From Porticoccaceae bacterium (GTDB taxonomy: Bacteria > Pseudomonadota > Gammaproteobacteria > Pseudomonadales > Porticoccaceae), in the NCBI GenBank assembly GCA_029250825.1, contig JAQXEN010000075.1, forward strand, positions 1 to 48,180: DNA of 48,180 nt. The letters run 5' to 3'. The notes under the pieces were generated by a model, which did not search any database, was not told where the DNA came from, and saw only the letters and a program-made list of their open reading frames with translations. Below are positions 8,132 through 45,417 of the stretch, piece after piece. Position 1 is the first letter of the stretch. Each line of letters begins with the position of its first letter. The position numbers and the translations under genes were made by a program.

Positions 8132-8413
8132 TCAGGGATTTTTTTCATCTCCCGGCTCCATACCTTTTAACCAGTAAACCCAGGATAAAATCACCGACAC
8201 TGCCACATAGAGACTCTCGGGTATCTCTTCATTGAGCTCCAGCTGTCCCAGTAGGGCAACCAGCTGAGGATCTTCGGCAATATGAACACCCTGCTTCTTT
8301 GCCTCTTCGATAATCAACTCAGCAATTTCGCCCTGACCTTTGGCGGTCATAATGGGCGCTGCCAGCTTGCCATATTCCAGAGCCACAGCCCGCTTTAAAG
8401 GTTTGTAAGTCAT
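8132..8413 (-). CDS. Stand-alone FlhB C-terminal domain protein (FlhX/YlqH-like)
   Basis: This 93-aa protein matches only the cytoplasmic C-terminal domain of FlhB, starting just after the place of the NPxH cleavage site: AVALEYGKLAAPIMTAKGQG compares with AVALSYDPSKDGAPIMVAKG in the full-length FlhB at 21.4 kb. There is no membrane segment and no NPxH. Similar small paralogues are known (YlqH in Bacillus, FlhX in Campylobacter) and may substitute for the cleaved FlhB fragment in export-gate function. Its ATG overlaps the stop of the upstream FliK-like gene by four bases (ATGA), so the two are translationally coupled. An open frame upstream of this ATG lies inside the preceding gene and is not used. 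Confidence 0.88.
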   Translation of the reverse strand: MTYKPLKRAVALEYGKLAAPIMTAKGQGEIAELIIEEAKKQGVHIAEDPQLVALLGQLELNEEIPESLYVAVSVILSWVYWLKGMEPGDEKNP

Positions 8414-9501
8414 GTGCTCAGATCTACCATTTGGCCACTGCCACTGCCACTGAGCCCTTCGCAAGCAGAGGGCCGCCGCGCATTGAGCACATCGAGCTTT
8501 TCTAGCGTCAGGCCAAAGCGCTGTAATTCGTATTGCAGTTCACTGGCAGCTTCACGGGCGCGATCTGCAACATCGACACGGGGCGCCCACATCACCATTT
8601 GAATACTCGCCGCCGACTGCAATGTGGTTTTCAACCACAACTCACCCAGACTGGGGGATTCCGTGTGCAGATTGATAATCCACTCTTGATCCTCAGCGGC
8701 TGAATTGGAGGCCTCACGATAAAGCTCTATTTCCACCGCATTGGCATCCATAAAAGGCAGCACAAAACTATAGCTCAACTCTCTCGACTGTTGCGCCTGA
8801 AGACTCTCCAACTGCTTGCTTTCCACTTCATCTATAGCGCCCTTAAGCTCTGCACCAATGGCACTCTGCAGCGGTGCATTGCGCAGCAAGCTGCGCAACA
8901 GCTGTTTCAGATCAGGTCCCTGCCTGACCACCCCACTGGCAAGTAACTGTTCACCAAATAGACCAGAGTTACTTAAACCGCGCTTAACCGACATTGGTGA
9001 AAGCTTTTCCATTGAGAGCTTTGCCATGGGGAGCTTTGCCATAGAGAGCATCAGGCTGGCGCGCAACTGCTCGCTGCCACCGAGCTGAGCGGCAAGCGCC
9101 TCTATGCCACCAGACTTAAACAGGCCGGCCAAAACCGAGGGCTGATCTGGGCGATGCATAAGCTGCAAAAGTGCAGGTGAAGGGATTGCCGGAGGCGTAT
9201 TTCCAGGCGAAGTTGTCAGGCCTCTAATAGGCACCAGAGAGCGACCAAAAATACTGCTGTCGACGCGAAAGTCTAATTTGTCACCGAGCTTAAAACGACT
9301 ACTGCCGGGCCACTCTAACTCTTTATTGTTGATCAACAATTTCAGCAGATCGCCGCGGGCTGCAATCACCCCCTGAACAATCTGGCCATCTTTTAGTCCT
9401 AGGTCTTTAGCTGCCTGTTGAGTCAACTGAATCGCGGCTGAGCCCTCCAAAAAAATCGGCGTGGGTCGCGCGGTTAAGTTGATCAGCTCGGGACCTAGCA
9501 C
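8410..9501 (-). CDS. FliK-like hook-length control domain protein (second FliK)
   Basis: A 363-aa protein with a C-terminal FliK/Flg_hook-type domain (about residues 270-345, including LGELWLKTTLQSA and RAREAASELQYELQRFGLTL). The region before it is Leu/Gln/Ser-rich and holds three near-identical pentapeptides (LPMAK/LSMEK type). The canonical fliK lies elsewhere (26.9 kb), so this is a paralogue. The start is GTG at 9501, with AGG eight bases upstream. Its partner is the FlhB C-terminal protein, mirroring the FliK-FlhB substrate-switch pair. It starts immediately after the terminator of the flgP-flgT operon. A role in switching or in a YlqG-like function is inferred. Confidence 0.8.
   Translation of the reverse strand: MLGPELINLTARPTPIFLEGSAAIQLTQQAAKDLGLKDGQIVQGVIAARGDLLKLLINNKELEWPGSSRFKLGDKLDFRVDSSIFGRSLVPIRGLTTSPGNTPPAIPSPALLQLMHRPDQPSVLAGLFKSGGIEALAAQLGGSEQLRASLMLSMAKLPMAKLSMEKLSPMSVKRGLSNSGLFGEQLLASGVVRQGPDLKQLLRSLLRNAPLQSAIGAELKGAIDEVESKQLESLQAQQSRELSYSFVLPFMDANAVEIELYREASNSAAEDQEWIINLHTESPSLGELWLKTTLQSAASIQMVMWAPRVDVADRAREAASELQYELQRFGLTLEKLDVLNARRPSACEGLSGSGSGQMVDLST
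9002..9046. repeat. Three 15-bp tandem repeats inside the second fliK
   Basis: Three adjacent units of the form AGCTTTGCCATGGGG/AGCTTTGCCATAGAG/AGCTTTTCCATTGAG encode repeated (L/S)(P/S)M(A/E)K pentapeptides in the FliK-like protein. In-frame repeats of this kind can vary in copy number and so change the length of a ruler-type protein. Confidence 0.75.
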
Positions 9502-12110: not shown

Positions 12111-14216
12111 ATGGCTTCAGCAATACTGTCAAACATACGTCAGGATATGTCGAGAATCGAACTCTCGAGCCTGGGCGTTCCAGCGCTGGTACTGCTGATT
12201 ATCTCGATGCTGATTCTGCCCTTGCCGGCTTTTTTATTAGATTTCCTGTTTACCTTTAATATTATTATCGGCCTAGTAATCATCATGGTCGCCATCAATA
12301 GCTCCAAGCCTCTCGACTTTTCATCCTTTCCATCGATCCTGCTGTTGGCCACCATGTTGCGGCTTGGACTCAATGTTGCCTCGACGCGACTGGTCTTGGT
12401 CAAAGGTCACGAGGGTCCAGATTCTGCCGGCAAGGTTATTGAAGCCTTTGGCGAATTCGTTATCGCCGGCAACTATTTAGTCGGTTTTATTATCTTTTCG
12501 ATTTTAATGATCATTAACTTTATCGTTGTCACCAAAGGTGCTGGGCGAGTATCCGAGGTCATAGCTCGCTTTACCCTCGATGCCATGCCCGGCAAACAGA
12601 TGGCCATTGATGCGGACCTAAACGCCGGCGTTATTGATCAGGAGACAGCCAAGTTTCGGCGCGAAGAGATTACTCAGGAATCAGACTTTTTCGGTTCTAT
12701 GGACGGCGCCTCGAAATTTGTTCGCGGTGACGCCATCGCTGGCCTACTGATTCTAATTATTAATATTGTTGGCGGTCTGATTATCGGTATCGGCCAACAC
12801 GATCTGACATTCTCCGAGGCTGGCCGCATCTATGTGCTGCTGACTATTGGTGATGGTCTGGTTGCGCAGATTCCGTCGCTGCTGCTGTCACTCGCCACCG
12901 CCATTATTGTCACTCGAGTCACCACCTCAGAATCAATGTCTGACCAGGCCAAGACTCAGCTCAATAATCCCATGGCCTTCTTTGTTGCCTCTGGTATTTT
13001 AATTCTTCTCGGCCTAGTTCCGGGGATGCCCCATCTGATGTTTTTAAGCCTCGGCGCTGGCTCTGCTGTACTCGCATACACCCTTGCTCAGAGCGCTCAA
13101 AAGCGCGAGCTGACCGTTACCATGGATGCTGCCACCATCGAGACCGCAAAGGCCAATACTGAAGAGTTGGGCTGGGACGATGTGGATCAAGTTGACCTTG
13201 TAGGCTTGGATATTGGCTACGGACTTATCCCTCTTGTGAATGCAGATGCCGGCGGCCAACTTTTAACCAGAGTCAAAGGTGTACGCAAAAAGCTCTCGGC
13301 TGAACTGGGCTTTTTGATCCAGCCGATTCGTATTCGCGACAATTTAGATCTGGCACCAGATGTCTATCACATAGTGATGAACGGCGTAGTGCGAGGCAAA
13401 GGCGAAATTAAAGTAGGTCGGGAAATGGCTATTAACCCCGGCCAGGTGCACGGCAAGTTGGAGGGCACAGCCACCAAAGAGCCGGCCTTTGGCTTAGATG
13501 CAATATGGATCGACCCGAGCCAGCGCGACTATGCTCGAACTCTGGGCTATACCGTTGTCGACTCGGCCACGGCCATTGCCACCCACCTCAATACATTGCT
13601 GCGCGGCAATTCTTCAGAGTTACTCAGCCATGATGAAACCCAGCAGCTGCTCGACAAAGTCGCGGCGCGAGCGCCTAAATTAGTCGAAGACCTGGTGCCC
13701 GGAAAACTGCCTTTGGCGACCATTACCAAAGTGCTACAAAATATTCTCGATGAGTCTGTCTCGGTGCGCGATATGCGCACCATTATTGAAGTGCTCTCCA
13801 CCGAGAGCGGCCGCACTCAGGATGCGGACGAGTTAACCGCAGCAGTGCGACCACGACTCGGGCGCATGATTGTGCAGGGCCTGGTGGAGATTAATGACAG
13901 CTTGCCAGTGATCACACTGGAGCCCTCTCTCGAGCAAATGCTGCATAACGTATTGCAGCAAAGCAGCACTAATCAGGGTTTGATTATTGAGCCAAAGCTG
14001 GCCGAGGGGCTGTTTAAGGCCCTCGCTGAGAACACTCAGGAAGTTGAAAATCAAGGACTCCCGGCAGTGCTGGTAGTGTCGCCGGGAATACGCCCCTGGC
14101 TGTCAAAAATTATTCGTCACAGACTGACAGATCTCACGGTTCTCTCCTACAGCGAGATACCTGAAGATCAGTCGGTAAAGGTTGTGGCCACAGTCAGTAT
14201 TGATGAAGAGAATTAA
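12111..14216 (+). CDS. flhA: Flagellar export gate protein FlhA
   Basis: FlhA (701 aa) is the major export-gate membrane protein of the flagellar type III system and couples proton or sodium flow to export. The N-terminal half has about eight membrane segments. The FHIPEP signature is present around residues 147-170 (RVSEVIARFTLDAMPGKQ). The C-terminal cytoplasmic domain that docks chaperone-substrate complexes follows from about residue 340, with the family end region LTDLTVLSYSEIPEDQSVK. Length is typical (about 690-710 aa). It starts the flhA-flhF-flhG-fliA unit behind a sigma-54 element. Confidence 0.97.
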   Translation: MASAILSNIRQDMSRIELSSLGVPALVLLIISMLILPLPAFLLDFLFTFNIIIGLVIIMVAINSSKPLDFSSFPSILLLATMLRLGLNVASTRLVLVKGHEGPDSAGKVIEAFGEFVIAGNYLVGFIIFSILMIINFIVVTKGAGRVSEVIARFTLDAMPGKQMAIDADLNAGVIDQETAKFRREEITQESDFFGSMDGASKFVRGDAIAGLLILIINIVGGLIIGIGQHDLTFSEAGRIYVLLTIGDGLVAQIPSLLLSLATAIIVTRVTTSESMSDQAKTQLNNPMAFFVASGILILLGLVPGMPHLMFLSLGAGSAVLAYTLAQSAQKRELTVTMDAATIETAKANTEELGWDDVDQVDLVGLDIGYGLIPLVNADAGGQLLTRVKGVRKKLSAELGFLIQPIRIRDNLDLAPDVYHIVMNGVVRGKGEIKVGREMAINPGQVHGKLEGTATKEPAFGLDAIWIDPSQRDYARTLGYTVVDSATAIATHLNTLLRGNSSELLSHDETQQLLDKVAARAPKLVEDLVPGKLPLATITKVLQNILDESVSVRDMRTIIEVLSTESGRTQDADELTAAVRPRLGRMIVQGLVEINDSLPVITLEPSLEQMLHNVLQQSSTNQGLIIEPKLAEGLFKALAENTQEVENQGLPAVLVVSPGIRPWLSKIIRHRLTDLTVLSYSEIPEDQSVKVVATVSIDEEN

Positions 14217-14247
14217 TATCCACCATTTAAGACAGGGTAATTGAGCA

Positions 14248-15546
14248 ATGGAACTACAACGAATTTTAGCCCGCGATACACGCAGCGCTATGGAGCAGGT
14301 TTTCAACCTTTACGGCGATGACGCAATGATCGTTGCTAACAATCGAGTGAAGGGTCAAACTGAAATCATTGTTGCTATGGATCTGGTGTCCGAGGTTAAA
14401 GCCGCTTTGATTAAACCCCTTGAAGCGGCCAGTCAGGATCAAAGTGCCAGCCAATTTGGTCAACTGATCGAGGCTCACATGCAGGTTAAGTCCGAGGACC
14501 AAAGAGCGGACATCTCGGACCATAGCGAGATTAGTTTCGGCACCGCTTTCGAGCCTTTTAGTGCGGCAACTGCAATCTCGAAGAAGCCTGCTCTAGATCC
14601 GCTAGTAACAGCGTCACTGGAGAATGTCAGCAACGCCCTAAATGGTGAAAACTATAAAGAGGCTGCTGACAGAGAGTATTTAAAGGCACGGGAAATCGTT
14701 GATCTGGTGAAGCAGGAACTCAGTCTGATGCGCGATGACTACAAGCTGTCCCAGCACAAAGACTCCTGGACGGGCAAGTTAGCAGTCAGTGACGAGATGG
14801 CGCCGCTAGTTGAAGCCTTTAATGAAACCGGCATGCCCTTGGGTATGCGCGAGTCAGTGATTGAAGTGATCAATCAAAGCAGCTCATTGGCCGATGCCAT
14901 CGACCAGATTAGCAGCGCTATCGGCGATGAAATAGACCATGTAGATCTACTTGATAACCTGCAGGGCGTGCATATTATTGCCGGCAGTTCAGGTTCTGGA
15001 AAAAGCATGATGGCCGGCCGACTGGCCAAGCAGATGGCTCAGCAGTACGGCGCAGATGATGTCGCGCTAATTAGTTATAACGACCAGCGCATTGGCGCTT
15101 GGGCACAGACCCAACTGATTGGCTCACAGGCCGGTGTCGACACGTTTCGTGCCAACTCAGCTGAAATACTGACCCAGCTGATGAGCGAACTAAGTGCCCG
15201 AAAACTGGTTCTTATTGATACCTCAGGTGTGGATGTTGAAACCCACCTTAACGCCCTTAGCGCAGCCCTGCCCGAGGCGCAAAAACACTTGCTATTAGCG
15301 GCAGATGCCTCTGAAGCCTCAGCTAAACGACAGCTAAAAAACGGCACTCTACAATGGGACTCGGTGATGCTTTCTCGGTTTGATGGCGACGTACATCCCT
15401 GGGCCATTATCTACTTATTGCTCCAGTATGCGGTGCCTCTCTCAGTATCCGCTGTAGAGCCCAACATCACTGGTAAAGTGTTGCCTTTAGATGGATTTAA
15501 ACTAGCGGAGCAGGCTCTTTCGCAACTGCCTATCCATTTAGTTTGA
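14248..15546 (+). CDS. flhF: FlhF, polar flagellum placement SRP-type GTPase, with divergent G motifs
   Basis: FlhF recruits the first flagellar parts to the cell pole. Identity rests on position between flhA and flhG, size (432 aa), the FlhF N-terminus (a helix starting MELQRILARDT, then the GDDAMIVANNRVKG segment) and an NG-type domain from about residue 180. The GTPase motifs depart from the usual ones: G1 is GSSGSGKS (about residues 247-254) instead of GPTGVGKTTT, the DTAG motif is DTSG (about residue 323), and the TKLD guanine-specificity motif is replaced by SRFD (about residue 375). The P-loop lysine is kept. Nucleotide binding is possible but its specificity and turnover are open. Confidence 0.85.
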   Translation: MELQRILARDTRSAMEQVFNLYGDDAMIVANNRVKGQTEIIVAMDLVSEVKAALIKPLEAASQDQSASQFGQLIEAHMQVKSEDQRADISDHSEISFGTAFEPFSAATAISKKPALDPLVTASLENVSNALNGENYKEAADREYLKAREIVDLVKQELSLMRDDYKLSQHKDSWTGKLAVSDEMAPLVEAFNETGMPLGMRESVIEVINQSSSLADAIDQISSAIGDEIDHVDLLDNLQGVHIIAGSSGSGKSMMAGRLAKQMAQQYGADDVALISYNDQRIGAWAQTQLIGSQAGVDTFRANSAEILTQLMSELSARKLVLIDTSGVDVETHLNALSAALPEAQKHLLLAADASEASAKRQLKNGTLQWDSVMLSRFDGDVHPWAIIYLLLQYAVPLSVSAVEPNITGKVLPLDGFKLAEQALSQLPIHLV

Positions 15547-15691
15547 CTAGGTATGGGCGATCAACGAGAATGGTTCAGAGGTGGGTTCCAAAATCATCCA
15601 CAATAAGCCCGTTTTAATGCGGTGCCCAAAGGCCAAATAGCCTTTATTAGAAGCATGAAATTAATAGCTCGAGACATAGTCATAAAAATTT

Positions 15692-16519
15692 ATGAATAAA
15701 CCGGCTACACAAATTATCGGCGTTGCCAGCGGAAAAGGCGGTGTCGGCAAAACAACAGTCTCCGTCAACCTGGCGGTGAAGTTGGCTTCGCTCGGCAAAA
15801 AAGTGATGATTTTTGATGCCGACTTGGGGCTGGCGAACGCTCAGTTGGCGCTGGGTATTCGTGCACCGTTTAATTTCAGCCATGTTATCTCCGGCGAAAA
15901 AACCCTCAGCGAAGTGATTGTCGAAGGTCCCTCTGGGGTAAAACTGGTGCCTGGCGCCAGCGGTATTCAGCGCATGGCTGCGCTCGGGCCTCAAGAGACT
16001 GCTGGCATCATTCAGGTTTTTTCTGAGATTGAAGATGATCTCGACTATTTAATTGTCGATGTTGCCGCCGGGTTATCGGATGCTGTGATGGCGTTTATGA
16101 GCGCCTGCCAGCACAGAATTGTCGTGGTAAAGAATGAGCCCTATTCAATCGCCGATGCCTACAGCACTATTAAAGTGATGATTCAGGAATACAAACTTGA
16201 TCATATTCATCTGCTGCCAAACGGCGTGGAATCCCAGCGCGAAGGTGAGCGACTCTTCACCAGCATAAATACCGTGGTGCAAAATTTTCTCGACGGGCAG
16301 ATTAAATATCTCCACTCCATCAGCGCCGACAGCATGGTCACGCAAGCCATGAAAGCCTCGCAGCCACTGGTTAACCATTCTCCTGCATCTGTTGCCGCAC
16401 GGGACTTTAGTGCGCTGGCAAAGAAAGTCATGCTGCTCGAACAAAATGTTCCACTGAATGGCAATATTCAGTTTTTTGTTGAGCGTGTTGCAGCGCAGAT
16501 GGCGTCTAAGGTCTCATAG
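15692..16519 (+). CDS. flhG: FlhG/FleN, flagellar number regulator (MinD-like ATPase)
   Basis: FlhG (275 aa) is a MinD/ParA-type ATPase that limits flagellar number, antagonising FlhF and, in pseudomonads and vibrios, the FleQ/FlrA activator. The deviant Walker A SGKGGVGKTT starts at residue 13, the switch I region is IFDADLGLANAQLALG and Walker B-like sequence is DYLIVDVAAGLSD. The C-terminal membrane-targeting helix is suggested by FFVERVAAQMASKV. A stop codon lies three codons before the ATG, so the protein truly starts six residues before the first beta strand and lacks the DQAxxLR helix that activates FlhF in several species. No clear SD precedes the ATG. fliA begins two bases after its stop. 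Confidence 0.93.
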   Translation: MNKPATQIIGVASGKGGVGKTTVSVNLAVKLASLGKKVMIFDADLGLANAQLALGIRAPFNFSHVISGEKTLSEVIVEGPSGVKLVPGASGIQRMAALGPQETAGIIQVFSEIEDDLDYLIVDVAAGLSDAVMAFMSACQHRIVVVKNEPYSIADAYSTIKVMIQEYKLDHIHLLPNGVESQREGERLFTSINTVVQNFLDGQIKYLHSISADSMVTQAMKASQPLVNHSPASVAARDFSALAKKVMLLEQNVPLNGNIQFFVERVAAQMASKVS

Positions 16520-16521
16520 CT

Positions 16522-17244
16522 ATGTCTGATGCCAGAGTCTATGAAGAAATTCAAAATGCCGGACAGCCGAGTGCATCCCTGGTTGACTATCTAGGCCTGG
16601 TAAAACGTGTTGCTCTCCATTTGAAGGGGCGACTGCCGGCCTTTATGGAGCTCGATGAGCTTATTCAGGTGGGAATGATCGGGCTGATTGAGGCGGATAA
16701 ATCCTTCGATGCCAGTAAAGGGGTAGATTTCGAAATATTTGCCAAGAACCGTATTCGCGGCGCAATTTTAGATCAGGTGCGCAAGATGTCATATCTGCCG
16801 CGCTCAGCGATTGTCAGTATTCGCGATCACAACGAGGCTACCTCGGCATTGACCGGTGAACTAGGGCGCGCTCCCAGTCAGGGTGAACTGGCCGATTTTA
16901 TGGGCAAGGATGCAGAAACTTTCCAAAAAGAGCGCACTCATGCCCACCGTTTTCAGACTGTATCACTAGAGGCACAGCTTCCCGATTCGGTGGATCTGCC
17001 CATAGCCCAGGGCAATGGCCCTGAAGAGGAGTTTGTCGAAGAACAGTTTATGGGTGCGCTTGCCGCATCCATCGGCAAACTGCCCGAGCGCGATCGAACT
17101 GTGGTCTCGCTATATTATGTGGAAGAGATGAATTTAAAAGAAATCGGTTCGGTATTGGACATTAGCGAATCCAGAGTGAGCCAAATTCTCTCTGCGTGCG
17201 TTAATAAGCTGCGCGTGCAAATGCACGATCATGTTGGCGATTAA
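16522..17244 (+). CDS. fliA: Flagellar sigma factor FliA (sigma-28)
   Basis: FliA (240 aa) directs late flagellar transcription and is held by FlgM until hook completion. Region 2 is clear (LDELIQVGMIGLIEADKSF and EIFAKNRIRGAILDQVRKMS, about residues 46-90). Region 3 follows, then region 4 with LPERDRTVVSLYYVEEMNLK and the helix-turn-helix ISESRVSQILSACVNKLR near the C-terminus. The length is typical. It is the fourth gene of the flhA operon. Genes downstream are not the usual cheY/cheZ. Confidence 0.97.
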   Translation: MSDARVYEEIQNAGQPSASLVDYLGLVKRVALHLKGRLPAFMELDELIQVGMIGLIEADKSFDASKGVDFEIFAKNRIRGAILDQVRKMSYLPRSAIVSIRDHNEATSALTGELGRAPSQGELADFMGKDAETFQKERTHAHRFQTVSLEAQLPDSVDLPIAQGNGPEEEFVEEQFMGALAASIGKLPERDRTVVSLYYVEEMNLKEIGSVLDISESRVSQILSACVNKLRVQMHDHVGD

Positions 17245-18583: not shown

Positions 18584-19525
18584 CTACTTGCTAATTGAAA
18601 TATAGGGATAGACAACCACTGAAGGTGCGGGCTCGGGCTCCACTGGTTTGCCCTCCGCCTGACGCGCCTCTTCCACTGCAACCTGTCGCTGCAGCACATC
18701 CAAATAATTTTCTCGCTCTAGAGCGATCAGCGCTTCAACGTCGGCATTGAGTTTCTTGACATTGCTGACCTGCGCTTCGAGAGACTTCATTTGCTGCCCC
18801 AGGGCGCCGACAGATTTTGACAGCGTCGAAACTATAGTGCTCTGGCCCGCCAAATCATCACTCAAACTACTCACTTGGGTAGCTATCTGATCCGTTTTTA
18901 AGCCCACTTGCTGTGCGGCTAAATCGGGCACTTCTTTGGCCAGAGAACGAGTCGATACCTCTGAACGAGACACCGCCTCAATCAACAGCATCTGGCGATC
19001 GCTAAACTGGGCCTGAGTAACGGCTAACTGGCCAATTGAAGAACGCAGCTGTTCAAAGGTATTGAGAGCACTGTTCATCTGCACAATGCGCTTGCTTACC
19101 GCGACCAGCATGGAGTCGACCTGAGTGACACGAGAGGCTAATTGAAATGCAATAAAACCGTAGAGAAAGACTGAAATCACTAGCGCCGAGACGGCGCCGA
19201 TCATAACGCGACTAGCCAGCACGGCACTCTTTTCACTGGCGTCATTCAAAGCCTCCGCTTGGACCTTAACCTGGTCGAGTCCCTTTTTTAATGCCGCCGC
19301 AGATTTGCGATTGACGTCTGCGGCACTGTTTGTCGCTTCGGCAATTTCAAGCACTCCGGGCAGTAACTGCTCGAGGGTTTCAGTGATCTTCTCGGCAGTG
19401 GCATCGCTGCTCTCCACATTAGCATCAGAGACTATATCCTCAGCGCCTAACTCTTCTGTGGGGGTAGTCGGCAGCACATTTTCTGGTGCATCGCCGGCTG
19501 CATCTTTAGATTTTTTGTCACTCAT
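18584..19525 (-). CDS. Uncharacterised single-pass coiled-coil protein, third gene after flhB
   Basis: I do not recognise this 313-aa protein. The first 100 residues are acidic and hydrophilic (probably cytoplasmic), one membrane helix spans about residues 107-130 (MIGAVSALVISVFLYGFIAF), and a long region from about 135 to 285 has the heptad pattern of a coiled coil (e.g. SDDLAGQSTIVSTLSKSVGA). The C-terminal tail is proline-rich and ends VYPYISISK. It resembles in outline methyl-accepting or motor-associated scaffolds but no signalling domain was seen. It is separated by 17 bases from the small gene before it and is the end of the fliK-flhB operon; convergent with the fliA operon. Confidence 0.8.
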   Translation of the reverse strand: MSDKKSKDAAGDAPENVLPTTPTEELGAEDIVSDANVESSDATAEKITETLEQLLPGVLEIAEATNSAADVNRKSAAALKKGLDQVKVQAEALNDASEKSAVLASRVMIGAVSALVISVFLYGFIAFQLASRVTQVDSMLVAVSKRIVQMNSALNTFEQLRSSIGQLAVTQAQFSDRQMLLIEAVSRSEVSTRSLAKEVPDLAAQQVGLKTDQIATQVSSLSDDLAGQSTIVSTLSKSVGALGQQMKSLEAQVSNVKKLNADVEALIALERENYLDVLQRQVAVEEARQAEGKPVEPEPAPSVVVYPYISISK

Positions 19526-19542
19526 AACGGATCCGATAACAT

Positions 19543-19827
19543 TTATTGATCAGCAAAATGTAAATTCTTTAACTGCTTAAAAATATCGGCAGTTTTGCGT
19601 TTTACTTTAGCGATACGCGCGCTAAAGATACCCTCATAGGAAAGGCGAATTGATTCTGGAGCGGTTACAGATGAATTAGCTGTGTCACTGTTAACAATGC
19701 TGTAGCGAACCCTCATTTCTGGTTCTGCAACGGGCACAAAAACAATCGCATCAGGGACTGCAACAACTTCGACTGCTCCAGACGGACCGGAAGCGGTGAA
19801 TAATTCACCGGTGGCAATTTCTGTCAT
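19543..19827 (-). CDS. Uncharacterised small protein, second gene after flhB
   Basis: A 94-aa protein without signal peptide or membrane segment. The first half is beta-like and valine-rich (VEVVAVPDAIVFVPVAEPEM), the second half contains IRLSYEGIFSARIAKVKRKT and a basic helix. It lies two bases after the stop of the SPOR-domain gene and 17 before the coiled-coil gene, so tight coupling supports it as real. No family recognised. Confidence 0.72.
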   Translation of the reverse strand: MTEIATGELFTASGPSGAVEVVAVPDAIVFVPVAEPEMRVRYSIVNSDTANSSVTAPESIRLSYEGIFSARIAKVKRKTADIFKQLKNLHFADQ

Positions 19828-19829
19828 AT

Positions 19830-21380
19830 TTAACGCCTCAAAATGGCCTGCAACTGAGCGGCGCTACGAATCCAATAATCATCGGGCACGGCGCTATCTT
19901 GGGTGAAAAGCGCTGCGGCTGCGCGCGTGGTAAACGGTCCTGAGACAACCCCATAGGCATTTTTTTGGCTCAAGCGCAGGGGCACTACTGCTGCGTCACC
20001 CAATATCGGGTAACGACTGACATAGGCCTTGGCGGCAAGCTCGCTGCTCAGCACAATATGTTGCACGAAATAGGCATTCGGGGGAGCTGAAGACAGAACT
20101 TGAGCAGCGCGCATAAGATCAGTGACTGCGACGTCGGTAATGGCTGCTTCTGCGCTGAGCTCTTCTGCTGCAGGCTTCTCTAGGACAGCTTCTTCCGTTA
20201 AAGACTCTTCTGCTACAGGCTCATCTACTACAAGCTCTTCTACTACAGGCTCGTCTGTCACAGCTAGGTCTGCGGATGGCGGTTCGCTAGCTGAAGAGTT
20301 ATCTAGGGATTCTATTTGAAGGGTAGATTCAGCGTCCTTTTGCTCTGCTGCGGCTTTTTCTTGAGTAACTTTCTCTTGATCAAGTTGCTTTGCCTCAAGT
20401 TGCTCTTCTGTAGGCACTGGGATTGACTCTATTCTGTACTTCGGCAGAGTCAGTGTTTCACTACTGCCCCCTTCGATATCAGCGTTTTGGCTAGTAGAGT
20501 CAGTAGCGCTGAGGGAATTAGGATAGAGCCACGAGATAACCAGTAATGACAGTGCCAGACTCAGCGTGATTAACATTATGACGAGCCAGGTTCGGCGACC
20601 CTTTGGGCTCTCTTCACTACCATGAGCATAATCCGCGGCAGGACTTTCTTCGTCCTCTGCGGTCACCCCCAGCAGCACATCAACATTCAATTCTGGCAAG
20701 TCTGGCAGGTCGGGATCTAGGGGTTCGTTGTTATCATCGTTGTGGCGACTGCCGACCAGAGTTCCCATACCCGCATCCACCAACAGGGCTTCGACCTCTA
20801 TTTGATAACCGCTTTCTTCCGCGGCAATCAGTAGTTGTCGCGCTTCTTCGATGGCTGGCGCCTGGGTTGGCCAACGATGCATGCGCTTGCCGAGGCTCTG
20901 GAGCAATTTCTCATGCCCCGGCCAGCCCGATTTGTTGATCACCAATATTAGGCGTGCATTAACGCCGGGAAAATCCCCCAGCAAGCGGACCAACAGAGCC
21001 CACTGATCATCATTGATAACCCGCGCGTCATTGATCACTAGACATCTCACCGGCTGTTCCGCAGAGGGCGGCGCAGCGGCTTGTTCCAAGCTCATTTCAG
21101 AGAGCATGTCATTAAAACGAATTAAAAGGCTGTCAGTGGTGACCGGTAAAAAAACATCGACGCTGAATCGCTCAAGCTTGCGTAAACGGGAAATCAACAT
21201 GCGGCTGTAGTGGTCGATCACCGTTTCATTGGACCCAATAATGGCAACCCCAAGATCATCTTCCACCACCGCATCTAAGGCGTCAGCGAAGCGCTTTTTA
21301 TCCTTGGGTCGAAAGAAAATATCGCCGCCGTCAAACCAACTGTGCAGCTCAAATGTAGGTTCTTGTTTGTTATCTACCAT
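19830..21380 (-). CDS. DamX/ExeA-like membrane protein with degenerate AAA and SPOR domains
   Basis: A 516-aa protein with three parts. Residues 1-200 resemble the AAA domain of the ExeA/MshM/DamX group: a strand-loop GVAIIGSNETVIDHYSRML where a P-loop should be, but with no GKT/GKS, and RCLVINDARVINDDQW in place of Walker B. It is therefore probably a non-hydrolysing pseudo-ATPase. A membrane helix lies at about 264-287, followed by a Glu/Pro-rich linker (residues about 300-420). The last 80 residues look like a SPOR domain (YFVQHIVLSSELAAKAYVSR; AYGVVSGPFTTRAAAALF), a fold that binds denuded peptidoglycan at division sites. It lies 58 bases after flhB in the same direction. DamX itself is a cell-division protein, so a link between flagellum and septum/new pole is inferred. 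Confidence 0.78.
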   Translation of the reverse strand: MVDNKQEPTFELHSWFDGGDIFFRPKDKKRFADALDAVVEDDLGVAIIGSNETVIDHYSRMLISRLRKLERFSVDVFLPVTTDSLLIRFNDMLSEMSLEQAAAPPSAEQPVRCLVINDARVINDDQWALLVRLLGDFPGVNARLILVINKSGWPGHEKLLQSLGKRMHRWPTQAPAIEEARQLLIAAEESGYQIEVEALLVDAGMGTLVGSRHNDDNNEPLDPDLPDLPELNVDVLLGVTAEDEESPAADYAHGSEESPKGRRTWLVIMLITLSLALSLLVISWLYPNSLSATDSTSQNADIEGGSSETLTLPKYRIESIPVPTEEQLEAKQLDQEKVTQEKAAAEQKDAESTLQIESLDNSSASEPPSADLAVTDEPVVEELVVDEPVAEESLTEEAVLEKPAAEELSAEAAITDVAVTDLMRAAQVLSSAPPNAYFVQHIVLSSELAAKAYVSRYPILGDAAVVPLRLSQKNAYGVVSGPFTTRAAAALFTQDSAVPDDYWIRSAAQLQAILRR

Positions 21381-21438: not shown

Positions 21439-22596
21439 CTATAAGCTTTCTGTGGCAAGTGTGCCATCACTGTTGTATCGCATTTCTTCCGGGACTTTGG
21501 GATTAGGTTTTTTCGACGTTTTCGCGCCCTGCTCGAAGCTGTTTAAGTTAAATATGTAGGCTATCACCTGCGCTACCGCGTAGTACAGTGATTCTGGTAC
21601 GGTCTGATTAATCTCGGTGGTAAAGAAAATAGAGCGGGCCAAAACAGGCGACGAAAACAGTGGCACACCCTCTTCTTTTGCCCGCTCACGAATCGCCTGA
21701 GCGAGTAAATCTGCGCCCTTGGCGACCATAATCGGCGCGCCATCTTTTGACGGATCATAACTCAACGCCACGGCAAAATGCTCCGGGTTAACGATGATCA
21801 CATCGGCATCGGCAATCGCTGACATCATCATGCCACTGGCTATCTCACGCTGCTTACGACGAATTTGTGCTTTGACCTCGGGACGTCCCTCGGTATCTTT
21901 CATCTCGTCCTTGATTTCCTGCTTGGACATTTTCATCTGTTTGTTAAAGGTGTACAGCTGATAGGGAATATCAATTCCCGCGGCGACAATTAGGCACAGG
22001 GTAACCAGCACTGTACCAAAGGCAATTATGCGCCCAGCCTCTTGCATAGCAGGCTGCAAATCCATAAATCCAAGCTTGATTAGAGTTGGGAAATTTTCAC
22101 TCACCACTAAATATAGTACGAAGGCGATTAAGACAAATTTGCTCAGAGCCTTACTCAGATCCACCACCGCTTTGGTACCAAACATGCGTTTTAAACCCGA
22201 CAGAGGGTTGAGTTTGCTAGCCTTCGGGGCAATCGATTTAAGCGAAAAGATATAACCGCCCATGGCCCCTGCTGCGGCAAATGCGATCAGCACTGCGAGG
22301 ACAAAAATCGGCACTACTACAAGTAAACTGTCGAAGGCTTGATTGCCAAACGCCGAGGCCAGCAGAGATGGGTCGTAAACTGCCTTGCGATCAAAGGTAA
22401 AACCCGCGGCAAACACAGCGGTCAAACCGGCGATAAAATAGCCGCCAAAAAGATATAAAAAGAATGCCACGCCGATCATCATGGCGGCCACTGAAAGCTC
22501 CTGAGAGCGGGCTACCTGACCGTCGTCTCGCGCCTTTTGCAGGCGCTTGGCGGTGGGGTCCTGATCTTTTTCTGCACCGGAGTCTTTATCTGACAT
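21439..22596 (-). CDS. flhB: Flagellar export gate protein FlhB
   Basis: FlhB (385 aa) works in the export gate and, after self-cleavage, switches specificity from rod/hook to filament substrates under FliK control. The N-terminus has the family sequence AEKDQDPTAKRLQKARDDGQ, four membrane segments follow, then the linker with MSKQEIKDEMKDTEGRPEVK. The cleavage motif is NPEH (about residues 268-271) rather than the commoner NPTH; the reactive Asn-Pro is preserved. The C-terminal domain includes GAPIMVAKGADLLAQAIRE. The ATG overlaps the fliR stop by one base. Three unnamed genes follow in the same direction. Confidence 0.96.
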   Translation of the reverse strand: MSDKDSGAEKDQDPTAKRLQKARDDGQVARSQELSVAAMMIGVAFFLYLFGGYFIAGLTAVFAAGFTFDRKAVYDPSLLASAFGNQAFDSLLVVVPIFVLAVLIAFAAAGAMGGYIFSLKSIAPKASKLNPLSGLKRMFGTKAVVDLSKALSKFVLIAFVLYLVVSENFPTLIKLGFMDLQPAMQEAGRIIAFGTVLVTLCLIVAAGIDIPYQLYTFNKQMKMSKQEIKDEMKDTEGRPEVKAQIRRKQREIASGMMMSAIADADVIIVNPEHFAVALSYDPSKDGAPIMVAKGADLLAQAIRERAKEEGVPLFSSPVLARSIFFTTEINQTVPESLYYAVAQVIAYIFNLNSFEQGAKTSKKPNPKVPEEMRYNSDGTLATESL

Positions 22597-42209: not shown

Positions 42210-43439
42210 TTAGCTGCCGTCGATAATCACTTCAATGCGACGGTTTTTAGAGCGGCCAGCGGGGGAGTCATTAGCTACCAGTGGTTTGGTGTCAGCCAGG
42301 CCAGTGACCGAGACGCGCCCATCGTCAATTGCTGAGCTATTTAACAGGTAGTCTGCCACCGCCGCTGAACGGGCTGCGGAAAGGTCCCAGTTGGAGCGAA
42401 ACCGTTCGCTAAAGGCCATAGGGATATTATCGGTGTGGCCTTCAATCGTAATCAGCCCAGAGCTGTCGGCAATCGAGGCGCCAACCTTATCCAGCAGCGG
42501 CTTAAAGGCTGGCTGGAGATCTGCGTAACCACTGCGAAACGAACCGCGCTCGGCGAGGCGCACAATAATTTTGTCGCCATCGCGCTCAACCTCCGCCAAG
42601 CCCTCGGCAATCTCATCGCTTAGGCGTGCACGAATTTTCTCATATTGATCGGCAATTGCCTGCTCGCCAGCTTCATCGCCGCGACCGCTAAGATCTCCAT
42701 CAAGGGTCTCTGGCGAGGCATCCATGACCTCAATTTGTGACTGCACCTGAGCCTGGGCAGAGGCTACCTTGGCATAGATTTCTAAATCTGACTGCATGAG
42801 CTGGGCGCCAGATTTCGTCTTATTGGCCTCTCCCTGCCTGCCTGTCTTGGCGTCGGCTACCACTTCAACTACCAGCTGCTTGTCTTTAACTGTGACCTTC
42901 ACCTTGCCTTCAGCAATTTCTTTGGCGAGAGATTTTTTCAATACTTCAACATCAGCGTTGGTGTCAAAATCATTCTTTTTTAGGGCATCTTTTAATTCTG
43001 GGTCTTCTGGCTGTGGCTCGGCTGTTGTCTGCTCTTGGATTACATCCAATAGTGTCGGATCCACTTTGGCGGTTTTGTACTGCTTGGCAATAATATTGTC
43101 AGCAGTAGGTTGCTCTACCGTTGGGACAATTTTTTGCACGCCAAATTTGTCATTCATAGAACCACTGACTTCTTTGTATTTGGGCACATTCATATGGGCA
43201 AAGGAGAGAATCAAGACAAAGAAGGCCATTAGCAACGTGGCCATATCGGCAAAGGTTGCCATCCACGCCGGCGCGCCACTTTTACAGGGCGGGCAGTCCG
43301 GCTCTTCTTCAGGCTCTTGCGCTGGTGGCGGCGGTTTCGGCGCGACAGCCTCTTCCGCAGCCGCCTCGTCAACAGTAGCCTCTTCGACCTCTGCTTCGAT
43401 GGCGGCGTCGGGCTTGATGTCGTCTAGTTCATCAGCCAT
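42210..43439 (-). CDS. pomB2: Second PomB/MotB-type stator protein
   Basis: A 409-aa PomB-like protein. A long acidic/Pro-rich N-terminal tail precedes CPPCKSGAPAWMATFADMAT; Asp64 in TFADMATLL is the ion-binding residue, followed by the membrane helix LLMAFFVLILSFAHM. The plug/early periplasmic region has VPKYKEVSGSMNDKFGVQKI. The C-terminal OmpA-like peptidoglycan domain has ITIEGHTDNIP and GRSKNRRIEVIIDGS. A strand module precedes the OmpA domain twice (about residues 170-198 and 267-298). It lies 23 bases after the first pomB and has AGGAG upstream. Convergent with the K+ channel gene. Confidence 0.88.
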   Translation of the reverse strand: MADELDDIKPDAAIEAEVEEATVDEAAAEEAVAPKPPPPAQEPEEEPDCPPCKSGAPAWMATFADMATLLMAFFVLILSFAHMNVPKYKEVSGSMNDKFGVQKIVPTVEQPTADNIIAKQYKTAKVDPTLLDVIQEQTTAEPQPEDPELKDALKKNDFDTNADVEVLKKSLAKEIAEGKVKVTVKDKQLVVEVVADAKTGRQGEANKTKSGAQLMQSDLEIYAKVASAQAQVQSQIEVMDASPETLDGDLSGRGDEAGEQAIADQYEKIRARLSDEIAEGLAEVERDGDKIIVRLAERGSFRSGYADLQPAFKPLLDKVGASIADSSGLITIEGHTDNIPMAFSERFRSNWDLSAARSAAVADYLLNSSAIDDGRVSVTGLADTKPLVANDSPAGRSKNRRIEVIIDGS

Positions 43440-43462: not shown

Positions 43463-44656
43463 TTAGGAACCATCGACAATTACCTCAATACGGCGGTTGC
43501 GCGCACGACCCGCAGCAGTATTATTCGACTCAATGGGCCTGGTGTCGGCAAACCCAGCGACGGTGATGGCACCCTGATCAAGCTCGGAATTCTGGGAAAA
43601 AAAGTCCGCCACAGAAGCGGAGCGGGCAGCGGAGAGGTCCCAGTTGGAATTAAATCGCTCGCTGAACGCCACTGGAATATTGTCAGTGTGACCTTCGACA
43701 CGGACCTTACCCTTGGCCGCCGATAGAGAATCGCCAACCCGAGTTAGCAACCCGGCAAAGCCCGGCTGGAGGTTGGCACTGCCGGAGACAAATGAGCCTT
43801 GGCTGGCGAGGCGAACAATGATTTTGTCGCCATCGCGCTCGACTTCAGCGAGTCCGTTCTGAATATCGGCGGCAAGGGACAGGCGTATCTGTTGGTACTG
43901 GTCTTCGACATCTTGGCGCCGTTGGTCGGCACTACCGCCGGAGGACGGACTGCTGTCGCTGTCTGATTGAGAGCCACCGCTCTGGTCTCCTGAGGCCAAC
44001 TGCTGTTTGCGCACCTGTATCTCTGTGGATAGAGTTGACTGAAGATCGACCACTTTAGAGGCTATTTCAATGGTGACTTGGCTGACCGGGCCTCCGGCGC
44101 CTTGCCCACTGTCGTCTTTGTCCTGACCTCCACTGCTACTGTCTGAGCGCAACTCAACGACCACTTTATTATCTTCGATGCTAACCACTACTTGACCCTG
44201 CTCGATCTGCTCTGCAAGTGCTTCCTGAACACTGCGGAATTCTTGCTGAGTTTTAAAATCAGCCGCTTTAGACTCAGTTTTTTTGACGATAAACTCTTGG
44301 GTGATATCTTCAGAGCGCTGACGCTTTTGGTCAATCACTGTCGGCTCTGCTAGAGCAGGAGTGTACTCCTGCTTGACCAGGCTGGTAGCAGTGGGGATAG
44401 AGATTTTTGGGACTATTCGGGCAACACCAAAAGCCGATCTCAGAGAACCGGCAATTTGTTTGTATTTGGGTACACTAACCTCGGCAAATGACAGCAGCAA
44501 GACAAAGAAAGCCATCAGCAGAGTCGCCATATCGGCAAAGGTCGCCATCCACGCCGGCGCGCCACCTTTACAGGGTGGGCAGTCCTCAGCCGGAGCCGGA
44601 GCTGGCTCTTGAGCGCCGGCTGGTGGAGCCTGATCTAGATCCTGGTCGTCTGCCAT
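43463..44656 (-). CDS. pomB: First PomB/MotB-type stator protein
   Basis: PomB (397 aa) with PomA forms the ion channel stator that turns the motor. Short cytoplasmic tail, CPPCKGGAPAWMATFADMAT with Asp42 as ion site, membrane helix LLMAFFVLLLSFAEVSVPKY, then the PomB-like AGSLRSAFGVARIVP. The OmpA-like domain has VRVEGHTDNIPVAFSERF and ends GRARNRRIEVIVDGS. The periplasmic linker is Gly/Ser/Asp-rich (e.g. SSSGGQDKDDSGQGAGGP). The strand module LAEQIEQGQVVVSIEDNKVV is repeated later as LAADIQNGLAEVERDGDKII. Starts eight bases after pomA. The membrane region is almost identical to that of the second copy. Confidence 0.9.
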   Translation of the reverse strand: MADDQDLDQAPPAGAQEPAPAPAEDCPPCKGGAPAWMATFADMATLLMAFFVLLLSFAEVSVPKYKQIAGSLRSAFGVARIVPKISIPTATSLVKQEYTPALAEPTVIDQKRQRSEDITQEFIVKKTESKAADFKTQQEFRSVQEALAEQIEQGQVVVSIEDNKVVVELRSDSSSGGQDKDDSGQGAGGPVSQVTIEIASKVVDLQSTLSTEIQVRKQQLASGDQSGGSQSDSDSSPSSGGSADQRRQDVEDQYQQIRLSLAADIQNGLAEVERDGDKIIVRLASQGSFVSGSANLQPGFAGLLTRVGDSLSAAKGKVRVEGHTDNIPVAFSERFNSNWDLSAARSASVADFFSQNSELDQGAITVAGFADTRPIESNNTAAGRARNRRIEVIVDGS

Positions 44657-44664
44657 TGTCTTAG

Positions 44665-45417
44665 TTACGCAGCCGCTAGCTTAGAGCGTGCTTTCGGACC
44701 CAGGAAGGATGCCAGGAAGTCGCTGAGTACGCGGGGGTTGCCACCGTCTTGAATAAACAGTATGCCTTCAATAATCAGCTCATTGTTGGCAGCTTCTAGC
44801 TCTGCCTGGTTTTCCAATTTCATGGCGATCGGCAAGCAGATCACATTGGCCAAAATAGCACCGTACATGGTGGTCAAAAGCGCCACCGCCATAGCCGGTC
44901 CAATGGACTTTGGATCACCCATATTGCCGAGCATCTGCACCAGACCAATCAAGGTGCCAATCATGCCCATGGCCGGCGCAATTTCACCCCAGGCGGAGAA
45001 GATTTTCGCTCCCCGCGCGTGACGCATTTTAGTGCTGGTCAATTCTCTGTCCAGGGAGCTTTTGATGATCAATGGATCTGTGCCGTCAACGAGCATGGAA
45101 ACAGCTTTGGACATAAATGGGTTGTCGATTTCCTGACCTTCGAGGGCGATCATGCCGTCTTTCCGAGCGATAGTCGCAAGCTCAACAATTTGCTCAATCA
45201 ATGTTGCAGGCTCATCGATTTTATTTTTAAAGGTCTTGCCCATAACGCCAACAGCACCGAGAAACTCTCCCAGTGAAGAGCGGAACATAACAACCATGAT
45301 TGAGCCGCCAACCACGATCAGTAGCGACGGAGTATCGATAAATGCAGCCATATCGTCGATCGCCATAAAGATCAAACCGAAGGCACCGAGCAGGCCAATA
45401 ATCGTTGCGATATCCAT
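44665..45417 (-). CDS. pomA: Stator protein PomA/MotA
   Basis: PomA (250 aa), four membrane segments, partners with PomB to conduct Na+ (or H+). Typical sequence: MDIATIIGLLGAFGLIFMAI at the start, TPSLLIVVGGSIMVVMFRSS, then the torque loop (about residues 60-150) and APAMGMIGTLIGLVQMLGNM with PKSIGPAMAVALLTTMYGAI (about residues 155-195). Length and pattern agree with Vibrio PomA and Pseudomonas MotC rather than with the longer E. coli MotA. One pomA is followed by two pomB genes. FliA-type promoter at 45.56 kb. Confidence 0.93.
   Translation of the reverse strand: MDIATIIGLLGAFGLIFMAIDDMAAFIDTPSLLIVVGGSIMVVMFRSSLGEFLGAVGVMGKTFKNKIDEPATLIEQIVELATIARKDGMIALEGQEIDNPFMSKAVSMLVDGTDPLIIKSSLDRELTSTKMRHARGAKIFSAWGEIAPAMGMIGTLIGLVQMLGNMGDPKSIGPAMAVALLTTMYGAILANVICLPIAMKLENQAELEAANNELIIEGILFIQDGGNPRVLSDFLASFLGPKARSKLAAA

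Follow-up and report, generated by a model that had tools for sequence, protein, structure and literature searches.

A candidate flagellar module of five genes at flhB and fliA in a putatively distinct flagellar lineage of SAR92 and other Pseudomonadales

The 48,180-nucleotide stretch analysed here (the window) is the whole of contig JAQXEN010000075.1 (G000:C93) from the Porticoccaceae genome bin GCA_029250825.1 (G000), and it carries a flagellar locus in which three unnamed genes follow flhB. These encode a DamX-like protein, S94 and CC313 (the trio); two further genes, X17840 and X17262, face the trio from the fliA side (all five are working names). We find that the trio is only part of the natural unit: the five genes occur, in varying subsets, with one kind of flagellar cluster, here called type B (clusters with module genes, as opposed to type A clusters, which have none). 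Type B forms one clade in core-gene trees and by this measure is a distinct flagellar lineage. The module is very probably dedicated to the type B flagellum, and comparison of the sequences suggests that it probably serves to hold or adjust the base of the flagellum in the cell envelope. The initial annotation had put forward the trio as an undescribed system; an undescribed flagellar system is well supported, although its natural unit extends beyond those three genes.

A flagellar role is very likely because the genes are linked to flagellar genes, are inherited with them and are absent from congeners without flagellar genes. Among 35 genomes of the window's genus (SAR92), flhA was found in 19 and the DamX-like gene in 17, with both in 16. 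The seventeenth DamX-like genome, G031, has no detected flhA, yet its DamX-like gene lies beside flhB, flhF, flhG and fliA. An eighteenth match, in G017, was removed as spurious (E 3.8e-4 over 58 residues of a 951-aa frame, with no flagellar genes nearby and no flhA in the genome). Three genomes carry flhA without the DamX-like gene, namely G007, where CC313 stands alone between fliA and flhB, and G025 and G032, whose loci are fragmentary. The remaining 15 have neither a detected flhA nor the DamX-like gene; one of them, G013, is a flagellate with a gap, as a contig ends inside its flhB. Across the order, a CC313 profile matched 29 of 390 genomes, and 28 of these matches are credible; the match in G060 is false (635-aa frame, none of the flagellar core genes within the 16 kb read, and an ordinary cluster elsewhere in the genome). 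flhA is present in 27 of the 28, and in the 28th, G353, CC313 lies near flhB, X17840, X17262 and fliA. The neighbourhood of CC313 was read in 23 of these genomes (the unread ones, G201, G300, G335, G370 and G404, belong to family f15), and 22 of them have flagellar genes within the sequence read; the exception is G397, whose CC313 contig has X17840 alone alongside and whose separate flhB contig carries a DamX-like gene. Carriers fall into families f1, f15, f38, f40 and f44, with linkage to flhB/fliA in all five. The predicted association with the flagellum was thus borne out, and neither the genus nor the order survey found the trio widely away from flagellar genes. Six loci came up when contigs were scanned for CC313: MOLA455, HTCC2207, one titled Pseudomonadales and three titled Porticoccaceae. 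The X17840 profile, run over 369 genomes drawn from the whole class, matched only G000, a search limited by a draw that seems poor in the window's order and by type B genomes that have no X17840 at the locus. G000 itself holds a second complete type B cluster (G000:C55, L028), with FlhB 88% and the DamX-like protein 58% identical. The two clusters probably represent two strains binned together, and the window contig may stem from such a bin; co-occurrence within G000 alone was for this reason not counted as an argument.

The composition of the module varies between carriers. Absence of a module gene here refers to the locus that was read, except where a search of the whole genome is stated. 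All five genes are present in 10 of the 16 genus genomes read from flhB to fliA, some S94 genes being recognised by position and alignment only. G019, G029, G020, G031 and G033 have the DamX-like gene and CC313 only, with S94, X17262 and X17840 not found at the locus. Outside the genus, all five genes occur in G399 (f1) and in six f15 genomes (G048, G353, G151, G123, G387 and G281; S94 in G151, G123 and G281 was assigned by position alone). The f40 genomes G213, G234 and G073 have the DamX-like gene, CC313 and X17840. Within f44, G115 and G333 have CC313, X17840, X17262 and, behind flhB, a DamX-like gene that encodes no SPOR domain, and G384 has CC313 and a DamX-like gene with neither transmembrane helix nor SPOR. 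G165 (f38) has CC313 and, behind flhB, a gene for a long S94-like repetitive protein, with no DamX-like gene at the locus and no X17840 beside fliA. The trio had been described as three genes locked behind flhB. As a fixed unit it is not supported: the f40 and f44 loci read showed no S94, those of G165 and G007 showed no DamX-like gene, and X17840 and X17262 join the set.

Phylogenetic separation of the two cluster types was assessed with a tree of joined FliP, FliQ, FliR, FlhB and FlhA (49 rows; quick search, with support from the Shimodaira-Hasegawa-like approximate likelihood ratio test only). A branch with support 100 separates the 26 type B rows from the rest; of the 23 type A rows, 14 were read as clusters, and the label of the other nine was assigned from a short flhB locus together with the absence of any CC313 match. 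flhA directly follows flhB on the same strand in 13 of the 14 type A clusters read, and two genes lie between them in G041. G165 forms the deepest type B branch, and G007, from SAR92, groups with the f44 type B rows. By the labels above, each of the five carrier families holds both types, and approximately unbiased (AU) tests on 20 rows of our choosing, under a simpler model than that of the 49-row tree, reject keeping each family together (p 7e-5 to 7e-46). Either whole-cluster transfer or ancient duplication followed by losses would account for both types within families. One type B genome, G384, has a second, ordinary-type flagellar cluster (G384:C32, L150) whose flhB and flhG frames are broken in the assembly. 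Because the lineage carries FlhF and FlhG, type B flagella are probably polar. A FlgP-like gene, named by resemblance, lies beside flhA in the type B loci read on that side.

At the window locus, the minus strand reads fliR, flhB, DamX-like gene, S94 and CC313, and the initially reported gaps of 58, 2 and 17 bases after flhB were confirmed. The plus strand reads flhA, flhF, flhG, fliA, X17262 and X17840, with 114 bases between the facing ends of X17840 and CC313. Purifying selection acts on all five genes. The trio proteins are 91% (DamX-like), 86% (S94) and 95% (CC313) identical to those of MOLA455 over aligned residues, and most flagellar proteins of the window are 92-100% identical to their MOLA455 counterparts. 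Between positions 17200 and 22700, neither promoter-like sites (3 found vs 5.1 expected) nor terminator-like sites (7 found vs 5.7 expected) were in excess.

Table 1 Module genes and adjoining flagellar genes in the window
Feature	Coordinates	Strand	Length	Remark
DamX-like gene	19830..21380	-	516 aa	
S94	19543..19827	-	94 aa	
CC313	18584..19525	-	313 aa	
X17840	17840..18469	+	209 aa	
X17262	17262..17804	+	180 aa	
flhB	21439..22596	-		upstream neighbour of the trio, same strand
fliA	16522..17244	+		upstream neighbour of X17262
flhA-flhF-flhG-fliA	12111-17244	+		

The DamX-like protein has an AAA+-fold domain (about residues 11-220), a transmembrane helix (264-282), an acidic linker and a SPOR domain (434-490; PF05036, 22.1 bits against a cut-off of 21). 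The AAA+-fold domain is predicted to be cytoplasmic. The P-loop pattern occurs in none of 32 DamX-like rows (27 different proteins), and ATP-driven action by this protein is therefore not expected. The initial description of an AAA domain with a lost P-loop and a SPOR end accordingly stands. SPOR was matched in 14 of the 18 members of alignment A2 (E<=0.1) and in 8 of the 14 members of alignment A7 (E<=0.01). The SPOR domain has FVQH where VQVG is usual. The three f44 proteins seen keep the pseudo-AAA+ domain, are tail-anchored or soluble, and have no SPOR. In f44, an unnamed hydrophobic protein of 149-156 aa is encoded facing the SPOR-less DamX-like gene (L128:9245-9715, L130:859-1308).

S94, which we take as soluble and mostly disordered, has two conserved stretches, an N-terminal ELF motif and a C-terminal RIAKVKRxTADI, and received no credible name from Pfam and NCBIfam searches. 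The G165 gene after flhB (L127:6444-7159, L085:8803-9364) encodes a repetitive protein of MGHHEGVGAGH-like units with an S94-like start and end, apparently an expanded S94; two G165 contigs end inside it. CC313 was correctly recognised as a single-pass coiled-coil protein: an N-terminal helical region is followed by one transmembrane helix (107-125) and a long coiled coil ending in a conserved ALxxLERExY motif. Its most conserved stretch lies after the transmembrane helix, in the part taken as periplasmic. Sequence searches of Pfam, NCBIfam and the PDB left CC313 without a credible name, and its coiled-coil matches (Sec3, SMC, chemoreceptors, viral proteins) were judged compositional. X17840 has a transmembrane helix at residues 3-21, within a helix spanning 2-43 in the structure model, and then a mostly helical domain that would be cytoplasmic. 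It belongs to no Pfam family, had no credible name from Pfam, NCBIfam and PDB sequence searches, and found no PDB fold match with Foldseek (best E 2.2). X17262 has no predicted transmembrane helix, and the same three sequence searches gave no family for it. Pfam and NCBIfam searches detected no signalling domain among the five proteins. For the trio, a match to an unrelated known system would have spoken against a new one, and these searches returned none that was credible.

Several known systems resemble parts of the module. Gammaproteobacterial DamX has an AAA+ domain with an intact P-loop and is encoded in an aroKB-dam neighbourhood. The DamX-like protein is likened to it by architecture, since it crosses the membrane once and has SPOR at its C-terminus and an AAA+-type fold at its N-terminus; it differs in lacking the P-loop, in going with the flagellum and in lacking SPOR in f44, and its gene lies behind flhB, both in the window and in the type B loci that carry it, and not in an aroKB-dam neighbourhood. 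ExeA/GspA proteins combine an ATPase P-loop with a PG_binding_1 domain, neither of which was found in the DamX-like protein. DotF/IcmG of the Dot/Icm system has a cytoplasmic N-terminus, a transmembrane helix and a periplasmic coiled coil. CC313 shares this plan, but it scored 19.6 bits in NCBIfam against a cut-off of 200 and its PDB match was weak (E 0.013); most likely the resemblance is one of coiled coils only. The MotX/MotY T ring and the FlgOPT H ring are periplasmic additions to polar motors. Type B loci retain the FlgP-like gene, whereas MotY is usually undetected, and CC313 is a coiled coil without a MotY_N (PF18393) match. MotY_N was found neither among the trio's Pfam matches nor in G000.

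Two landmark systems of polar flagella offer closer parallels. FipA, a partner of FlhF, has an N-terminal transmembrane helix and a cytoplasmic remainder with DUF2802, and its gene lies downstream of flhA-flhF-flhG-fliA, as described in PMC11620751. On that description, X17840 shares both the topology and the place after flhA-flhF-flhG-fliA; it differs in that no chemotaxis genes lie between fliA and X17840 and in that DUF2802 (PF10975) was matched neither by the window protein nor by any of the 19 members of alignment A4. HubP/FimV joins a wall-binding periplasmic part, a transmembrane helix and a cytoplasmic part, according to PMC12918733. The same three-part plan is proposed for the DamX-like protein, which instead has SPOR and an AAA+ fold; no LysM or FimV domain, including the C-terminal FimV tetratricopeptide repeat (TPR), was found in the trio.

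Several flagellar components that are common in the other flagellated genomes were undetected in most of the type B genomes tested. Flagellar-type CheW (best E below 1e-30, a line set after the scores had been seen) was found in 1 of 42 type B genomes (sets of 19 and 23; several of these genomes are only 71-90% complete), the exception being G165. It was found in 62 of 77 flagellated genomes without credible CC313 (12/15, G060 and 49/61; the 61 were picked by us to span families from 264 genomes with flhA and without credible CC313). The other type B genomes have at most three CheW matches, all weaker, or none; in several cases one match lies in a frame of about 1,900-2,100 residues, which we take to be as in pilus Chp systems. 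The 15 controls without flagellar-type CheW include f1 genomes with ordinary flagella (G141, G275, G331), which argues against a tight link to the module. DUF2802, the mark of FipA, was detected in 2 of 20 type B genomes vs 12 of 21 others (two of the 12 below the Pfam cut-off); the type B exceptions are G165 and G384, where the DUF2802 gene adjoins fliA of the second, ordinary cluster. MotY_N was detected in 1 of 20 vs 16 of 21, the exception again being G384, with its second flagellar system. Each of these three losses may be a single event on the tree, and they are not independent proofs.

Taken together, the best explanation, which we hold tentatively, is that five accessory proteins form an envelope scaffold recruiting and holding the basal body at the pole. 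The DamX-like protein would be a non-catalytic AAA+ scaffold on the cytoplasmic face, fixed by one helix in the inner membrane and, in most species, tied by SPOR to peptidoglycan. CC313 would span the membrane beside it and reach the periplasmic part of the basal body with its coiled coil, and S94 could act as a flexible adaptor linking cytoplasmic partners. Such a scaffold would recruit and hold the nascent basal body at the pole and so do the work of HubP/FimV and FipA in other Gammaproteobacteria. A scaffold role suits the DamX-like protein because a dead AAA+ domain is fixed to the membrane and mostly also to peptidoglycan. Polar tethering is favoured because FipA is usually undetected and X17840 copies the topology and gene place of FipA, and a tether or landmark role for the module is possible on these sequence features, at a level short of probable. 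We infer the membrane orientation, complex formation, polar location and tethering function. Four observations weigh against this explanation. FipA is undetected in 9 of the 21 genomes without the module as well. G019 has no FipA in its genome and no X17840 at its locus, so X17840 is not a required FipA substitute. SPOR is absent from all three f44 proteins seen; peptidoglycan binding is therefore not obligatory. Finally, in one SAR92 subclade the joint loss of S94, X17840 and X17262 coincides with a divergent FliM and with a FliL that is divergent or not adjacent to fliM, which points to the motor. The initial proposal that the complex reads septal peptidoglycan and the new pole through SPOR is weakened: the f44 proteins make it unlikely as the core function, and it becomes one of several readings.

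The close rival of polar tethering, if itself rather unlikely, is a motor or stator scaffold, in which the CC313 coiled coil and the pseudo-AAA+/SPOR protein would replace the MotX/MotY T ring and hold the stators to the wall while S94, X17840 and X17262 act at FliM/FliL. The scarcity of MotY_N in type B genomes, the retained FlgP-like gene and the conservation of CC313 in its putative periplasmic part all suit this explanation; MotY is also undetected in five genomes without the module, however, and no trio protein matched MotY_N. Support also comes from one SAR92 subclade (G019, G029, G020, G033; G031, outside the tree, shows the same pattern) in which S94, X17840 and X17262 are missing together. 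FliM of that subclade is 41-57% identical to the window's, compared with at least 75% in congeners keeping the three genes, and FliL is either divergent or undetected beside fliM. This co-loss is confined to one clade and is probably one event. In addition, f15 keeps the three genes with FliM at 56-62% identity, and FliM divergence alone is therefore not the sign. FliM of G020, G031 and G033 (L035, L036, L037) is strongly diverged, with changes at an FFGGFGRG-like stretch that remains intact in those SAR92 genomes carrying the full module.

A broader proposal, in our judgement doubtful, treats type B as a separate system: a five-protein dead-AAA+ complex would replace the FipA landmark, the MotY ring and chemotaxis input, so that placement and motor are set by cell-wall or cell-cycle state and not by chemosensing, and either transfer or an old duplication followed by losses would have spread the system among Pseudomonadales. 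Less probable still is replacement steering, with the module modulating rotation or switching via FliM in flagella without CheA/CheW, in place of the che genes after fliA. cheY and cheZ often follow fliA in Pseudomonas and Vibrio, a place occupied here by X17262 and X17840, and type B FliM keeps an N-terminal LLSxEELDAL-like stretch that resembles the CheY-binding motif. The scarcity of CheW in type B genomes fits steering too, yet it is not independent evidence because the che genes can have been lost once, after the G165 branch split off; moreover, the 15 controls lack flagellar-type CheW without having the module, and none of the five proteins showed a signalling domain in those searches. 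Type II secretion uses AAA+ proteins of the ExeA/GspA type that bear a peptidoglycan-binding domain, and by analogy the pseudo-AAA+ protein might act on FlhB/FlhA as a checkpoint on export or on insertion through the wall; its gene comes directly after flhB in almost every type B locus where it is present, and its plan of AAA+, transmembrane and wall-binding parts resembles that of ExeA, but the P-loop is missing and SPOR is lost in the f44 proteins seen, and we consider this the least probable explanation.

Other flagellar genes of the window lie further from the module. A 110-aa FlhX-like paralogue (8132-8464, minus strand) shares 40% identity with the C-terminal part of FlhB across 87 residues (E 1e-16). 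Two adjacent MotB/OmpA-like stator genes (42210-43439 and 43463-44656, minus strand) adjoin a single motA-like gene (44665-45417, minus strand), all three named by reading.

Searches confined to the open PMC library listed no paper that, judged by its title and the beginning of its abstract, deals with this module or with a flagellar lineage of this group that lacks chemotaxis. Coastal seawater holds SAR92 bacteria in abundance, according to PMC10746254, and PMC4391266 mentions reports of high motility-gene expression in an HTCC2207 bin. The module bears on two questions, namely how a pole is found and kept without FipA and how a flagellum is used without chemotaxis. It offers five testable genes, in carriers that include the cultured SAR92 strains MOLA455 and HTCC2207, together with a natural series of losses: SPOR in f44, and S94, X17840 and X17262 in one SAR92 subclade.

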